Origin: Leptolyngbya sp. FACHB-261
Lineage (GTDB): Bacteria > Cyanobacteriota > Cyanobacteriia > FACHB-261
Assembly (NCBI RefSeq): GCF_014696065.1
Contig: NZ_JACJPL010000028.1
Coordinates: 1 to 64,000, forward strand
Direction: 5' to 3'
Length of the DNA: 64,000 bases
Shown here: in pieces, positions 40,862 through 53,394 of the stretch
Layout: each line of letters opens with the position of its first letter
How positions within the stretch are numbered: position 1 is the first letter of the stretch
Program-made: the position numbers and the translations under genes
The notes under the pieces: model-generated
What the model saw: only the letters and a program-made list of their open reading frames with translations
The model's database searches: none
What the model was told of the DNA's origin: nothing

Positions 40862-43516
40862 CTATCCGCATTGCTGAAGAAGTTCTGCAATTAGACCTGT
40901 CCAACCCGTTTGGTGACTTGCCCCTAATCCGGTACCGTTGTCTCCATGAAAGTACTCATGGAAGAGAATTAAGTTCTGCCAGTGGGGGTCCGTTTGAAAC
41001 AACTGATTACCGCCATAAACAGGTCTAAATCCTGACGGATTTTGTAGAAAGATGCGCGAGAGCCGGTGAGCCAGTTCTGTTGCAACCTCTAAAAGCGTCA
41101 TCATTTGACCTGAGCCAGTTGGGCACTCCACCTTGTAGTCATCGCCGAAATATTGGTGGAATGTATGCAGCGATTCGATGATTAAGTAGTTAATTGGAAA
41201 CCAAATGGGACCTCGCCAGTTAGAATTGCCACCAAACAAGGCGGTGCTAGATTCGGCAGGTTCGTAATCAACTCGATACTCCTGTCCATCTACGTTCAAG
41301 ATGTAGGGATGCTCAGCGTGGAATTTGGAGACAGCACGGATGCCATAGGGACTGAGAAATTCTGCTTCGTCCAGCATCCGACTTAGAATACGGGGAAATT
41401 TTTCTCGGTCAAGAATTGCCAGAAGCCTACGCTCAGCCACACCTTCACGCTGCATACAAGCAATTCCACTCGTGAGGTCATGTCGATTTTGGATAAACCA
41501 CTCGGTTCGTTGCCGGAACCCTGAAAGTTTTTCCAGCATCTCAGGTTCCATAATGCCAACAGCGAATAAAGGAATTAGCCCGACGATTGACCGTACCTTT
41601 ACCAAACAGTGTTTGCCATCAGGAAAGTTCATGGCGTCGTAATAAAATCCGTCGTCTTCATCCCAAAGGGTAAGCGCATCTTTACCAATGCCATCCATAG
41701 CACTGGCAATGCGCAGAAAATGTTCGAAGAATTTACTGGCAATGTCCTCGTATACTGAATCTGCTTCTGCTAACTCCACAGCAATTGTCAGCATATTCAT
41801 GCAGTACATCGCCATCCAACTCGTGGCATCTGCCTGCTCCAGGTAACCACCCCTTGGCAGTGGTGAGCTGCGATCGAACACACCGATGTTATCCAGTCCT
41901 AAAAAGCCGCCTTGGAAGATATTTTTGCCGCCAACATCTTTGCGATTTACCCACCAGGTAAAGTTGAGCAGCAGTTTTTGAAACACCCGTTCCAAAAACT
42001 TGCGATCGCTGCGACCGTACATTTTTTGCTCCATCTTGTAAACGCGCCAAGCGGCCCATGCTTGCACAGGTGGATTGACATCGCTCAATGCCCATTCATA
42101 GGCTGGCAATTGCCCATTAGGATGCATGTACCATTCCCGTGTGAGCCGTTGGAGTTGGCGTTTGGCAAAGTCTGGATCAATCATTGCCAAGGGAATGAGA
42201 TGAAAGGCAAGATCCCAGGCAGCAAACCAGGGGTATTCCCACTTATCAGGCATAGAGAGAATGTCATCGTTGAAGATGTGCAGCCAGTCGGAGTTCCTAC
42301 CGTTCTGACGCGGCTCCGGCGGTGGTGGACCGGTAGGATCACCATTGAGCCAATCTTCTACTACGTAATAGTAAAACTGTTTGTTCCACAACATGCCTGC
42401 AAAAGCCTGTCGTTGAACATTGCGCATATCTTCTGATAGCGGAAAAGGAGTAATACGGTGATAAAATTCGTCTGCTTCGCGCTGGCGCAATTGTAAAGTT
42501 GCATCAAACTCATCACCAAACGGATCGCTTAGATCAGAAGCATCGCTGAGTCTCAAGCGCACCGTTTTAGTCTCATAGGCAGCGATGGTCAAAACATAGT
42601 GCGGAGAAACTTTCGTGCCAGTTTGCTCCGGATTCACCGCTGTTTTCTGCCCTTGGACTAAATAATCGTTAATTCCATCCTTGGCATAGTTAGAGACACT
42701 GCTAGTACCAAACAAGCGTTCACAATTCGTTTCATTTTCTGTGAACAGCAAGGGCATATCAACCTGCATTTCTGCATTTTGGCAATACAGCCAACGGGTA
42801 CCCAAAGTGGGATGATAAGCTTCAATCATCTGAGACTGAGTGTCTGTTTTTGAAACTTTCAGAAGCGGTTTCTCTGGCTCAAATCTCCACGACCAAATGT
42901 TGCGGAACCAGAGAGTTGGCAGTAAATGCAGAGTTTTTGCTTCGTCCCCCCGGTTAACAATATTGATCTGAATCAGAATATCTTCTGGAGAACCTTTGGC
43001 ATATTCAACAAAGACATCAAAATAGCGATCTTGATCGAACACGCCCGTGTCCATCAGTTCAAACTCCGGTTCCTGTTTGCCTCTACGGCAATTCTCCTCT
43101 AGCAGTTGGGCATAAGGGAATGATTGGTGTGGATACTTATACAGATATTTCATGTAGGAGTGGGTGGGTGTGTTGTCCAGGTAGAAGTAATATTCTTTGA
43201 CATCCTCCCCGTGATTTCCCTCACTCCCTGTTAGACCAAATAGCCGCTCTTTAAGAATCGGATCTTCACCATTCCAAAGAGCGATTGCAAAACACAAGCG
43301 TTGATGAGTATCGGAGATGCCAGCAATGCCATCCTCACCCCAACGATAAGCACGAGAACGGGCATGATCGTGGGGAAAGAAATCCCAGGCAGAACCATCA
43401 GGGCTGTAATCTTCGCGCACAGTCCCCCACTGCCGCTCACTGAGGTAGGGTCCCCAGCGCTTCCAGTAGGCAACGCGGTTGAGATCTTCCTGTAGCCTTA
43501 CTTCTTCTGGAGTCAT
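40862..43516 (-). CDS. GH63-like glucosidase (MGH1-type)
   Basis: 884 residues, a large (alpha/alpha)6-barrel glycosidase of the GH63/MGH1-like group. The N-terminal half has [20 protein letters not shown] and [21 protein letters not shown], the barrel has [19 protein letters not shown] and [16 protein letters not shown], and the C-terminal barrel part holds SGFRPVYGG. Bacterial members hydrolyse glucosides such as mannosyl- or glucosylglycerate, so an osmolyte-turnover role is a reasonable inference; the catalytic residues were not assigned. It is last in a four-gene minus-strand run, 24 bases after the epimerase gene. Confidence 0.8.
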
Positions 43517-44667: not shown

Positions 44668-45519
44668 TCATACCCCATCCCGATGCCTGTTAATTCTTTG
44701 CACATTACGAGCTGTCCTGCCCCTGTTGTTTTCAACTAGCTCAAATGCGACTGCTGTACCTGCTTGTAGGGTGCGATAGCCTTCACCGGGAATGGCAGTG
44801 AAATTGAAAAAAATAGCTTCGCCGCTCCCGTCTATGACAATCATGCCGCTACCTGCTTTGAGATCAAACCAGCGCACTACACCCTGAGCTACGGGCAACC
44901 CACTTTCACCTAGAGGAGGCACACCGTCAACCCAGGCTTGCTGCGGGATTCGTATTTGTTTAACAGCGGGTGTATTGTATGCTTCGTAGTCATAATCTGA
45001 GCGAGTCTCGAGAATGGCCCGCAGGTCGTGTCGTAGTTCCTCAATCGTCGGTCGTCCCACGAAGAACCAACCATTGTAGACTTTGTCAATCGTCAGGTCA
45101 GGACGCAGTACAAAGGTGTAAGGTTGAGCACGAAAAGCATACTCACCCTCAGTTTCATCCAGAATATTGATTTGCTTAATTAGTTCTCGCTGCTCATCAC
45201 ACAGAAATTGCCATTGGGCTCCCAAACCTGCTCGAAATGCTGCTTGAACCAGGGGCGGGTCAACGCCAATCGTGACTAGCTTGCTATAGTTGACGGCCAA
45301 TTCATTTTGGAATTGAACCAATTGGGAGAACTGCTGACGGTCGCGAGGACAGAAGAAACCTCGGTAAAAAACGACAATCAGCGGGTAGCCATCTAGAAAC
45401 TCTAGATATCGGTCCATTAAGCTAGGTTGAGTGAAGCTCGAAAGCTTTACTAACTCATTCTCGTGAGTTCTTAACTCAACGTCAGGAAAGCGATCGCCTA
45501 CCTGTAAATTAGTTGTCAT
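44668..45519 (-). CDS. Peroxiredoxin fused to a cold-shock domain
   Basis: 283 residues from ATG 45519, with AAGGAG 10 bases upstream. The AhpC/TSA domain (1-185) has the peroxidatic Cys in YRGFFCPRDRQQF (Cys57); the second Cys of the usual CxxC is Asp60, so it is a 1-Cys type. Residues about 208-280 form a cold-shock domain: GVVRWFDLKAGSGMIVIDG (RNP1-like, with the central F of GFGFI replaced), AIFFNFTAI (RNP2-like) and VAFELVENNRGRTARNVQRI. The fusion would tie peroxide reduction to nucleic-acid binding. It starts 13 bases after the flavin reductase gene ends. Confidence 0.87.
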   Translation of the reverse strand: MTTNLQVGDRFPDVELRTHENELVKLSSFTQPSLMDRYLEFLDGYPLIVVFYRGFFCPRDRQQFSQLVQFQNELAVNYSKLVTIGVDPPLVQAAFRAGLGAQWQFLCDEQRELIKQINILDETEGEYAFRAQPYTFVLRPDLTIDKVYNGWFFVGRPTIEELRHDLRAILETRSDYDYEAYNTPAVKQIRIPQQAWVDGVPPLGESGLPVAQGVVRWFDLKAGSGMIVIDGSGEAIFFNFTAIPGEGYRTLQAGTAVAFELVENNRGRTARNVQRINRHRDGV

Positions 45520-45532
45520 CGCCAAAAGCTCC

Positions 45533-46909
45533 TTACATATTGGGACAACCTGGCATATCGTCGCCAATCAGTAACCGGGCTAGGCTAGGTAATGCCTCCC
45601 CGTAGGTGGGATGAATGTGGACCGATTGCTCTAACAATTGCCAAGTCGCTCCTGCTTCCATCAGGGACAGAAATACATGCACTAGCTCGGCGGTTTCATA
45701 CCCTACCAACGTTGCTCCCAGAATTTTGTCTGTATCGCTATCGATGACCATACGATAGAAACCCAGGTCATGTCCCCATTCAATGGCACGAGCAATCTGG
45801 CTCATGGGTAAGGTGACAGCACGAGCGTTCATCCCTTTTTCCTGAGCTTGTTCTATGGTCATTCCCACACGTCCAACCTGAGGTTCTGTGTAAACGGCAT
45901 AGCCAAGCACACGATCATGACGCGTCCGCTTCTCACCACACAGAATTGCTTTTAGGCGACGATAATCTTCCCAGGAAACATGCGTAAAGGCAGGCTGTTT
46001 AGCCGCATCGCCAATTGCATAAACACCAGAACAGGTCGTGTGAAACTGGTCGTTGATTTTGACAAACCCTTGGGCATCTAGCTCAATTCCACTGGCTGCT
46101 ACCTTGAGTGCGCCTGTGTTCGGTTTTCGTCCAATTACAACCAGTAGAGCTTCTCCCTGAAGTTGCTCTCCATTGCTCAGACTCAGCGTGAATAAGTCAT
46201 TCTCGTGTGCGACCTGCTCAACGTTGACGTCAAAGTGGAGCTGAATACCATCCTGCTTCAGTGCTTCCGCTAAGACCTCGCTCACCTCAGGTTCTTCCTG
46301 ACCTAAAACGCGATTGCCACGCACAATCAAGTGGGTTTGACTACCTAAGCGAGCCAGCCCCTGTCCCAATTCCAAGCCGATATAGCCGGCTCCAATCACC
46401 AATAAGCGCGGCGGTAATGCTTTTAAGTCAAAGAAGTTGCGGTTGGTCAGGTAGGGTGTCCCTGCAAGGCCGGGAATATCAGGAATCAAGGATGACGTGC
46501 CGGTGTTGATTACAACTAAGGGCGACTGAACTGTGACATCGCCGCCCTTAACTGTACGTTCTCCGATAAACGAGGCTTCAGCACAAACGACTTTGACCCC
46601 AGCGCCATCCAGCCGTTTACGAGCACCCTGGTTAAAGCGATCACGGATCCCTCGTACCCGCTCCATGACAGCAGGGAAGTCAACTTCAACTGTGTTATGG
46701 ATACCTAACTTTTTCGCTTGGCGGGCACGGCCTGCGGCGTGAGCCGCTGCCAAAAAAGCCTTGGAAGGAGTGCAGCCGTAGTTGATACAGCTGCCGCCCA
46801 AAGCATCCCGTTCAAACAGGACAACGTTTCGCCCCTCCTTAGCGAAATCAGCCGCTAACGGAATACCTCCCTGGCCGCTGCCAATCACGATTACATCTGC
46901 TGTTTCCAT
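45533..46909 (-). CDS. Flavin-dependent disulfide reductase (mercuric/dihydrolipoyl family)
   Basis: 458 residues from ATG 46909, with GGAGAACA about 10 bases upstream. FAD-binding IVIGSGQGGIPLA; redox-active Cys pair in GGSCINYGCTPSK (Cys41 and Cys46; GGTC is more usual than GGSC); NAD-binding VIGAGYIGLELGQ; and the C-terminal catalytic His in HIHPTYGEALPSL. Related cyanobacterial enzymes are called mercuric-reductase-like, but the N-terminal HMA domain and C-terminal Cys pair of MerA are absent. It heads the four-gene run, and may supply reducing power to the peroxiredoxin next to it. Confidence 0.88.
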   Translation of the reverse strand: METADVIVIGSGQGGIPLAADFAKEGRNVVLFERDALGGSCINYGCTPSKAFLAAAHAAGRARQAKKLGIHNTVEVDFPAVMERVRGIRDRFNQGARKRLDGAGVKVVCAEASFIGERTVKGGDVTVQSPLVVINTGTSSLIPDIPGLAGTPYLTNRNFFDLKALPPRLLVIGAGYIGLELGQGLARLGSQTHLIVRGNRVLGQEEPEVSEVLAEALKQDGIQLHFDVNVEQVAHENDLFTLSLSNGEQLQGEALLVVIGRKPNTGALKVAASGIELDAQGFVKINDQFHTTCSGVYAIGDAAKQPAFTHVSWEDYRRLKAILCGEKRTRHDRVLGYAVYTEPQVGRVGMTIEQAQEKGMNARAVTLPMSQIARAIEWGHDLGFYRMVIDSDTDKILGATLVGYETAELVHVFLSLMEAGATWQLLEQSVHIHPTYGEALPSLARLLIGDDMPGCPNM

Positions 46910-47217
46910 CAATATTGTTCTCCTTGGGATCGCAGCGCTTTTTTAAGGCTCTCATGTTTAAACTAGAGAACCTTGAAAGAAAGCTGAGTGAGAGATTAAT
47001 CTTTCTGCCATTAAATCACCCACTTACGCATTTACCGTAAATTTGGTTCTCAAGCGAAGCTTCTTTGTCCTTTGAATTGGCTGAAACTCGGCATGGAATC
47101 TACACGAAACTGATCAGTCTAACCGAGTTGATTACTCATCTAGAAAGTGGAGTCACAATTGTGAATGCCCTTTCTGGATCTAGACAACGTCAACGCTGAC
47201 CGTAGATTTAGGTAGGC
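46910..47217. other. Promoter region of the stress operon
   Basis: About 300 bases between the flavin reductase start and the kinase 3' end. AT-rich with no gene; it must hold the operon promoter, though no motif is clear. Confidence 0.4.
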
Positions 47218-50550: not shown

Positions 50551-53394
50551 TCACAGCCAATTGCCCAGAAGAATGAACGGTGCCCAGTAATAGGGATGCG
50601 CATATTCATCCTGCTTCAGTAGGGTCAGTTGGGCGCGACGCAAAGCCTCAGCTTTATTCACGCTCAGCTTGCCTAGCTCTCGGTAAAACTCGACCATTAA
50701 GGCAGAAGTAGAGCGGTCATTGACTGACCACAAGGTTGCCAGGGTACTGCGGGCTCCAGAGCGTACTGCCACACCCGCCATACCGAGTGTGGCCCGTTTA
50801 TCACCAGCAGCAGTTTGACAAGCGCTGAGAACTAGCAATTCAATTGGATTGAGTTCAGCTTGTTCTCTAGATCGCAGTAACTGATCCAGTTGTTTAACAT
50901 TAATTCGACCGTCCCAAGTCAGGATGAACGTCTCCTCCGCGTTGGAACTAAACTGACCGTGGGTTGCTAAATGAACAATGGGAAATGGCGCTGAATCCAC
51001 CCGACTTTCCAGAGCTGCGCTGGTAAATGTCTGATCTAACAGGACTTGCGCAGGTAGCTCAGCTCTAATTTCATTGATTTCGGCAGTGACATTGGGTAGG
51101 GCAGAAAAGCCCTGCCGCGCTTGACTCACTCCTGCCAATAAACCTCTCAATTGCTGAGGTTTGAGCGGTTGGGGTTGGAGCAGTTGTAGCCCTGGCGTCA
51201 GAACTACGCTGTACTTCTCGATCAGATATTGCTGACCGTCGTGGAGTGCTGCCATCGGCAGATTTTGCAGAGCCCCATCCAAGACAAATACCAGCGTAGT
51301 AACATCACTGCTGGCTAGTTTGGCCTCAGCAGGTCGCAGCAGCCAGTCATACACCTGCTGCGCAAGGGGCAACCGTTCTTCCAAGAAGGAATTAGGTGCA
51401 AGGGAGCGTAACATTTGGTCGAGAACCCGCTCAAGTTCCGCTTGAGGCAGAGGGGCTTCATAGTAGGTCAGGGGTTGATTCGGCAGAGACAGGATCACCG
51501 CCAACCGATTCGGCAAAATGATTGGGTAAACGACTGCTGCTTTGGGGTTAACCTGGTCAACTAAGACAGGCCGAGCATTTAAACAAGACTCCCGAAAGAA
51601 GTTGTCTAGCTCTGCTAATTGAAGCGATTCAATAACCTCGCGGGCCTGCCTGAGTTTTTGCTGATCAGGTTCACCTCCCTGTGGGTCTTGAAGAAGCAGT
51701 TCAACGAATTGCCGGTAAACGGGCTCTACACTCTCTCTAAAAGAGAATTGCACCTCTGAGTTCGTCGCGACTAGATCAGTGCGCAGTGATTGCAGGGTAT
51801 TTACTGCCTCTGCATAGGCGGCGACTGCTGCCTCATGTTTTTGCAGTGGGATCGAGTCATTGCTTGCGTTTGGTTTAGAGTCTCCTGCTCTAGAAGGCGT
51901 GAGCGCGGTTTGCGCTTTCAACAGCCGTCCGAGCTGCCACTGCCACTGATAGGCAATGTCTGGTGCGTTAATCGCCTGCGCTAAGCTGAGCGACTGCTGC
52001 GTGAGTTCTTGGGCATTCTGCCATTGCTGAGTCTGTTCGTACAGATTGCCCAGGCTGCCCAAGGCATAAGATTCTGCCCGACGATCACCCAGGTTTCTAG
52101 CTTGCTGAATTGCAGTTGCTAGCAGTTGAGCTGCGGTCTGAGGTGTAGCAAGCTGTGACCTACTGCCACTGCCAGAACTCCCTCCATTGGCAAATTTCAT
52201 CAGTGCCTGAGCGAGCTGAATTTCGGCATAGATTCCAGCACGACTGGCAGGGAGTTCAGCAAGCTGGGGCTGGATTTGCGCCCAGACCGCTTGAGCTTCT
52301 GCCCGTCGCCCTGTTTCAGTGAGCAGACTCAGCTGGGCAACTTCGGCTTGGATCTTGGAGGCAGGTACAGGGGCAATCGCTGTGGCCTGACGGTAAAAGC
52401 CAAGGGCTGTGTCGGTCTCGCCTTGGCTTTGGGTAAGTGTGCCTAAACTCAGCCGGATTCTGCTCAGGTCCAAGGCGGACTCAACTGAGGAAACTGGCGC
52501 TGCCTGATGCAATCGTTCGGCCACAGCCAAGCCTTGCTGCAAAACAGCCCGAGCTTGGTTCAAATTGCCTACCAGACGCAGAACATTGCCGAGGTTGCGC
52601 AGACCCGCGATCTTCAGAGAAGAGTCAGGCTGATTTTGCAGAGTCTGTTCCACCTGCTCTAGCAGGATCGCTGCTCGTCTGTAAAACCCTAAGGCTTGCA
52701 GTGCTCTAGCCTGATTCATTTGACTGCCGATGATCCCCTCGTCATCCTGGGCGCGTCGGTAAGTTGCTTCAGCCTGTTGCCAGGTTGTGAGGGCCTCTGA
52801 CTCTTGCCCCTGCCGCAATTGCAATCGCCCTTGCGTGTTGAGGGTCTGGGCGAGAATTGGCAGCGCATCTGGCTGGTTATCTAAGGGTGAGGAGCGCAGG
52901 AGAGCCAGAGCCTGCGTCACTGCTGTATTGGCTTGCGGCCACTGCCCTAGCTGTTCTAAAGCGTTTGCGATCCAGCCCAAGACCGAGGCTTGGTTGAGCC
53001 GGTCACCTTGAGCTTCAAAGGTAGTTTCAGCTCGTTGCCACATAGCAACTGCCTCTGCGAATTGTCCTGCCTGATAAAGCGCCTTGCCCTGTTGAACCAG
53101 GTTCGTAAGCGTAGACGGCAAAGGCTGGGGCTGCGAAGAATTAAAGGTAAGGGGTTGCGTTGAAGTCAGGCTAACCACTGGCTTGTCCACAGCCATCTGT
53201 TGAGGCAGCCTTTGCGACAGAGCTACAGCAACTCCAGCATGTAGGCTGAGCGTGGTGAGCCAGCCCACTAGAACCAAAAGGCTGAATACTAGCCAGCCTG
53301 GTTGGAACCCGCGACGCCTTAAAAAGGACCTTGCCTGACGAACTAGCTTGAGCATGACAGGTTTAGGGGCGCGTTTAGGTTCCACGGCAGGCAA
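50551..53394 (-). CDS. TPR-CHAT caspase-like protease
   Basis: 947 residues from a TTG overlapping the preceding exoprotein gene by 20 bases; GTG 53385 and ATG 53355 are alternatives. An N-terminal signal anchor (about 28-55, WLVFSLLVLVGWLTTLSL) is followed by TPR repeats (about 90-560) and a C-terminal CHAT domain. The caspase dyad is intact: His in HLATHGQFSS (about 812) and Cys in LVLSACQTAAGDKRA (about 858). CHAT proteases cleave specific proteins after activation; the anchor suggests a periplasmic or membrane-surface site. Its place directly after the exoprotein suggests processing or control of that protein. Confidence 0.9.
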   Translation of the reverse strand: MPAVEPKRAPKPVMLKLVRQARSFLRRRGFQPGWLVFSLLVLVGWLTTLSLHAGVAVALSQRLPQQMAVDKPVVSLTSTQPLTFNSSQPQPLPSTLTNLVQQGKALYQAGQFAEAVAMWQRAETTFEAQGDRLNQASVLGWIANALEQLGQWPQANTAVTQALALLRSSPLDNQPDALPILAQTLNTQGRLQLRQGQESEALTTWQQAEATYRRAQDDEGIIGSQMNQARALQALGFYRRAAILLEQVEQTLQNQPDSSLKIAGLRNLGNVLRLVGNLNQARAVLQQGLAVAERLHQAAPVSSVESALDLSRIRLSLGTLTQSQGETDTALGFYRQATAIAPVPASKIQAEVAQLSLLTETGRRAEAQAVWAQIQPQLAELPASRAGIYAEIQLAQALMKFANGGSSGSGSRSQLATPQTAAQLLATAIQQARNLGDRRAESYALGSLGNLYEQTQQWQNAQELTQQSLSLAQAINAPDIAYQWQWQLGRLLKAQTALTPSRAGDSKPNASNDSIPLQKHEAAVAAYAEAVNTLQSLRTDLVATNSEVQFSFRESVEPVYRQFVELLLQDPQGGEPDQQKLRQAREVIESLQLAELDNFFRESCLNARPVLVDQVNPKAAVVYPIILPNRLAVILSLPNQPLTYYEAPLPQAELERVLDQMLRSLAPNSFLEERLPLAQQVYDWLLRPAEAKLASSDVTTLVFVLDGALQNLPMAALHDGQQYLIEKYSVVLTPGLQLLQPQPLKPQQLRGLLAGVSQARQGFSALPNVTAEINEIRAELPAQVLLDQTFTSAALESRVDSAPFPIVHLATHGQFSSNAEETFILTWDGRINVKQLDQLLRSREQAELNPIELLVLSACQTAAGDKRATLGMAGVAVRSGARSTLATLWSVNDRSTSALMVEFYRELGKLSVNKAEALRRAQLTLLKQDEYAHPYYWAPFILLGNWL

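Follow-up and report, generated by a model that had tools for sequence, protein, structure and literature searches.

A one-cysteine peroxiredoxin-fold domain joined to an altered cold-shock domain, with a probable flavin disulfide reductase partner, in three bacterial phyla

Redox domains of the thioredoxin/peroxiredoxin fold and cold-shock domains (CSDs) have both been described in detail. SelL proteins may carry selenocysteine in a CXXC-type motif, and AhpE works with a single key cysteine. Peroxiredoxins carry a P-x3-[T/S]-x2-C signature and a strictly conserved Arg positioned before the strand that follows helix alpha4 (PMC5719442), while canonical CSDs feature the nucleic acid-binding motifs RNP1, [YF]-G-F-I, and RNP2, [YF]-[YF]-H (PMC7825780). 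A cyanobacterial PRX-like group has further been reported to contain CXXC, to be devoid of the peroxiredoxin triad and to be suspected of a different mechanism, in a survey that makes no mention of cold-shock fusions (PMC3514251). The open-licence literature searched here yielded nothing relevant on peroxiredoxin-CSD or other redox-CSD fusions, in keeping with the sequence-only reading, which knew of no characterized example, and no flavin disulfide reductase paired with a cysteine-CSD protein. We analyzed a 64,000-nucleotide stretch of the Leptolyngbya sp. FACHB-261 genome (contig NZ_JACJPL010000028.1, positions 1 to 64,000; hereafter the window) that encodes such a protein: both folds are familiar, and what we did not find described in that literature is their joining, the loss of canonical motifs from both of them and the pairing with a reductase.

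The fusion joins the two domains in one open reading frame (Table 1), as originally proposed, and both pass their Pfam cutoffs and are borne out by structure prediction. AhpC-TSA (PF00578) matches residues 8-146 with 45.4 bits against a cutoff of 26 (E 9.5e-12) and CSD (PF00313) residues 213-276 with 54.3 bits against a cutoff of 27 (E 1.2e-14), where the domain numbering is shifted by at most one because the Pfam query carried one extra leading residue. In NCBIfam, the N-terminal part weakly matches the 'SelL-related redox protein' model NF040769 (28 bits vs. a cutoff of 120) and the C-terminal part finds CspD-type profiles below threshold, while a PDB sequence search returns CspB for the CSD and, weakly, Bcp/PrxQ for the N-terminus. 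An alternative in-frame TTG lies at 45567, and the conserved start of the fusion reads MTTNL. We conclude that the two-domain fusion is real and its coordinates are correct: a chance reading frame or frameshift artefact is ruled out by 27 further full-length fusions with the same domain order, lengths and linker, and spurious peroxiredoxin or CSD matches by the structure search.

Table 1. Coordinates of the fusion gene, its parts and the neighboring reductase gene in the window
Feature	Position	Strand	Description
Fusion gene	44668..45519	-	283 aa plus stop, ATG start; one-Cys AhpC/TSA-fold domain, conserved linker, cold-shock domain
N-terminal redox domain	44971..45519	-	residues 1-183
CPRD motif	45340..45351	-	residues 57-60; the same in all 28 full-length fusions
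Inter-domain linker	44887..44970	-	residues 184-211; near-invariant IRIPQQxW
Cold-shock domain (CSD)	44692..44886	-	residues 212-276; five-stranded barrel
FAD/NAD(P) disulfide reductase	45533..46912	-	459 aa; directly upstream of fusion; CX4C and HPTxxE

An AlphaFold2 model of the whole fusion, computed from the 28-sequence alignment, has a mean pLDDT of 82, and its residues 2-175 adopt the overall fold of AhpE/Bcp (PrxQ; PDB 1xxu, 3hjp, 2cx3), with Z scores of 20-21 at ~2 Å over 150+ residues against Sulfolobus Bcp4 and M. tuberculosis AhpE. Cys57 lies within an invariant FxRGF(F/Y)CPRD stretch, at the N-terminus of a modelled helix spanning residues 58-77, as does the conserved cysteine of peroxiredoxin helix alpha2, and is the sole invariant cysteine in the 28 fusions, which upholds the assignment of a one-Cys AhpC/TSA-fold domain. 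The observation that CPRD takes the place of CPxC at residues 57-60 likewise stands, and no member displays the two-residue CXXC-type motif of thioredoxin- or SelL-like proteins. A second, resolving cysteine was considered and rejected, with C107 being A or S in 21 of the 28 and position 79 being C, G or S. The label 'peroxide-reducing', on the other hand, does not appear to hold as stated, for both hallmarks are missing: the signature is replaced by F(Y/S)RGF(F/Y)C in all 28 fusions (FYRGFFC in the window), with a 3-residue gap immediately before the cysteine in the alignment to 2ywn, and the column of the 2cx3 Arg holds Pro133 in every sequence. An invariant Arg156 is found elsewhere in the domain, in a GWxx(V/I)GRP(T/S) motif.

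The fusion thus shares with AhpE the single key cysteine but differs from the AhpE/Bcp proteins by the absent signature, the Pro in place of the catalytic Arg, the additional CSD and a sequence identity of only ~20%. With the cyanobacterial PRX-like subfamily (PMC3514251) and the SelL-related proteins of NF040769 it has in common a Trx/Prx fold, a cysteine opening a CPxx motif and the lack of a triad, whereas the PRX-like subfamily carries CXXC and the fusion has CPRD, no second cysteine and an attached CSD. Closer relatives are short, CSD-less one-Cys redoxins of cyanobacteria, Chloroflexota and rhizobia, which read CPKD or CPKE and are 37-47% identical over the redox domain. In a tree of that domain, the 28 fusions share one side of a branch with 100/100 support and the CSD-less relatives form a separate clade on the other, consistent with a single fusion event.

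The linker retains R190, I191, P192, Q194 and W196 as invariant positions and leads into a CSD with an equally invariant FFNFTA(I/L)PGxGYR stretch. As the whole-model fold comparison was filled by the peroxiredoxin domain, the C-terminal part was modelled separately (pLDDT 76) and found to form five strands, with CspA and CspB as its best PDB matches (E ~2e-5, TM 0.73-0.83 by target length); absence of an OB fold, which would have spoken against the proposed domain, was therefore not observed. The five-stranded OB barrel is shared with CspA/CspB at 32-50% identity in structural alignment, but in the fusion it is part of a larger redox protein and both RNP motifs are altered. RNP1 reads S-G-M-I in the window and N-G-x-I in the other 27 members, and RNP2 reads F-F-N throughout. 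The equivalents of F15 and H29 are lost in 28/28 and that of F17 in nearly all; the positions corresponding to F9, F27 and F30 do not vary, Tyr conservatively replaces F38, and half of the members retain W8. Because both motifs are altered in every member, nucleic acid binding by the CSD may have been lost.

The best functional clue to the fusion, absent from the sequence-only reading, is the neighboring disulfide reductase. Its gene ends 13 bp before the fusion ATG, and its Pyr_redox_2 and dimerization domains (Pfam) together with its CX4C and HPTxxE motifs make it a flavin disulfide reductase resembling the MerA/RclA/glutathione-reductase type, although it reaches the cutoff of none of the NCBIfam models among the matches listed. 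It is probably an operon partner of the fusion. Neighboring reading frames were clustered for 33 loci, comprising the 28 full-length fusions, three truncated or interrupted copies, L002 and L019; the reductase is directly upstream on the same strand in 11 of them (the window, L013, L023, L028, L029, L030, L034, L035, L038, L040 and L041), where L040 and L041 come from a single genome, on two contigs, and count once, and the reductases of L013, L023 and L029 are fragmentary or partial. The gaps to the conserved fusion start are at most 83 bp except at L016, where one DM13-domain gene intervenes, and most examined fusion loci are without an adjacent reductase. Of the 17 cyanobacterial genomes that carry a fusion or a fragment of one, 15 encode a close reductase (at least 68% identical), the two without one being G023 and G213; among the 371 remaining genomes 28 do so (Fisher p 4.5e-14 over 388 genomes, with no kinship correction). 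The reductase next to the fusion in three Bacteroidota shares only 34-36% identity with its cyanobacterial counterparts; since the fusions themselves are 55-60% identical to that of the window, this points to repeated pairing, and the simplest reading of the sequences suggests that two reductase subfamilies were independently recruited beside the fusion. CSD-less relatives in three genomes (G033, G053 and G098) also have the same reductase family within ~4 kb, so that the CSD is not required for the pairing.

Other recurrent neighbors include a DM13 electron-transfer protein (5 loci) and glycogen-debranching, neutral-invertase and MGH1-like glycosidases, and on a Calothrix plasmid the gene order is reductase, fusion and glucose-6-phosphate dehydrogenase, a source of NADPH. 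Taken together, these neighbors would fit a reductase supplied with NADPH derived from sugars.

Further neighborhood observations can be added. At 40862-43516 the window encodes a protein of 884 aa that groups with glycosidases of the MGH1/GH63 type, and the same or related glycosidases stand beside the fusion in L014, L016, L024, L030, L040 and L041. The small DM13 protein adjoins the fusion in L016 (3477-3998), L023, L025, L029 and L030, and not in the window. About 5 kb upstream of the window fusion, a 947-aa TPR-repeat protein (50551-53394) has a C-terminus that by eye is CHAT-like, and in a Cyclobacteriaceae bin a confirmed TPR-CHAT gene (L033:4939-8025) lies directly downstream of the fusion; the proximity of such genes in both places is probably coincidence.

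Among 84,980 species genomes scanned, 32 loci were recovered; 27 of these are intact full-length fusions, 55-77% identical to the window protein and distributed over Cyanobacteria, two Anaerolineae bins (L024, L031) and eight Bacteroidota (L032-L038, L043). The Anaerolineales fusion is 74% identical to the window protein, which suggests transfer of the fusion between phyla. Near-full-length fusions are present in ~13 of 388 sampled cyanobacterial genomes, in a patchy distribution, and several more cyanobacteria have fragments or frameshifted copies, damage which implies that the gene is dispensable. Wide occurrence in Bacteroidota and Chloroflexota was considered and rejected: of the 345 and 251 genomes sampled, respectively, only the centre genome had the full fusion, which is therefore rare in these groups. 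A viral or mobile-element origin was also rejected, as no fusion relative was found in viral contigs and the plasmid collection contained a single full-length fusion, that of the Calothrix plasmid. Median dN/dS values, obtained by simple counting from few unsaturated pairs, are 0.10 for the redox domain, 0.26 for the linker and 0.25 for the CSD, which by this measure indicates purifying selection on each of the three segments.

Because both halves have lost textbook active-site residues, the protein probably represents a new type of redox-regulated protein rather than an enzyme that simply destroys peroxide. The explanation we favor, at about even confidence, is a reductase-recycled one-cysteine thiol-redox module of AhpC/TSA fold with an attached, modified CSD, against which it counts that one-cysteine thioredoxin-fold domains can be non-catalytic. 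Under stress Cys57 would become oxidized or enter a mixed disulfide and would then be reset by the adjacent NAD(P)H-dependent flavin disulfide reductase; genomic context provides the pairing, and family knowledge together with gene context points to a putative electron path from NAD(P)H through FAD and CX4C to Cys57. The CSD, in which the classical base-stacking surface is altered and the remaining aromatic face invariant, could still interact with RNA or single-stranded DNA, at an altered affinity or specificity, or could instead dock onto the redox domain, and the covalent joining of the two suggests that the redox state of Cys57 might alter CSD behavior. More tentatively, and with confidence well short of even, the family may constitute a redox-to-RNA switch in three phyla, where a flavoprotein reductase controls one peroxiredoxin-fold cysteine that gates a fused, re-specialized CSD.

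A working one-Cys peroxidase akin to AhpE or Prx6, with Cys57 reducing peroxides and the CSD only localizing the enzyme to nucleic acids, a possibility raised in the sequence-only reading, would agree with the AhpE/Bcp fold at Z ~20, the invariance of Cys57 and Arg156 and the neighboring reductase, but is unlikely given the missing P-x3-[T/S]-x2-C signature and the invariant Pro in place of the catalytic Arg in 28/28 (PMC5719442). Much the same doubt attaches to a CSD that has given up nucleic acids altogether and now serves as a structural or protein-docking module, for instance in reductase or substrate recognition: every member does have the N/S-G-x-I and F-F-N versions of RNP1 and RNP2, the F15 and H29 equivalents are universally lost and F17 nearly so, and both FFNFTA(I/L)PGxGYR and IRIPQQxW are invariant beyond generic CSD needs, yet the F9, F27 and F30 equivalents and the conservative Tyr at F38 persist on an intact fold, and CSD-less relatives also occur near the reductase. 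That the fusion is incidental, without coupled function and persisting through drift or as a passenger of mobile DNA, is highly improbable: the patchy cyanobacterial distribution (~13/388), the damaged copies and the one plasmid copy would fit, but one clade over three phyla, dN/dS of 0.1-0.26 across all segments and the conserved linker and operon would not.

If the redox-to-RNA switch were true, thiol redox or NADPH state would be coupled directly to RNA handling. With redox and RNA-binding-type domains in one chain and a likely reductase in the operon, such coupling can be tested with two purified proteins, and the altered motifs in both halves make the family a test case for repurposing of the peroxiredoxin and CSD folds. 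The family further cautions against relying on automatic annotation, in which the Calothrix fusion is named only 'cold shock protein' and the CSD-less relatives are called only 'redoxin domain-containing protein' or 'alkyl hydroperoxide reductase'.

Several partial copies were encountered alongside the intact ones. In Phormidesmis priestleyi (L040 and L041, 4004-4390) the fusion gene is cut off after residue 124 on both contigs, with the same reductase alongside and no CSD found downstream. A short frame in the cyanobacterium G013 (L005:1534-1731) is 58% identical to the fusion CSD and represents a remnant or split-off CSD, no redox domain having been found in its vicinity. The window's own genome contains a second copy of the redox domain (G000:C34:2901-3440; L010, L011, L012, L070), frameshifted, truncated and ~76% identical, which is apparently a pseudogene or an assembly error.
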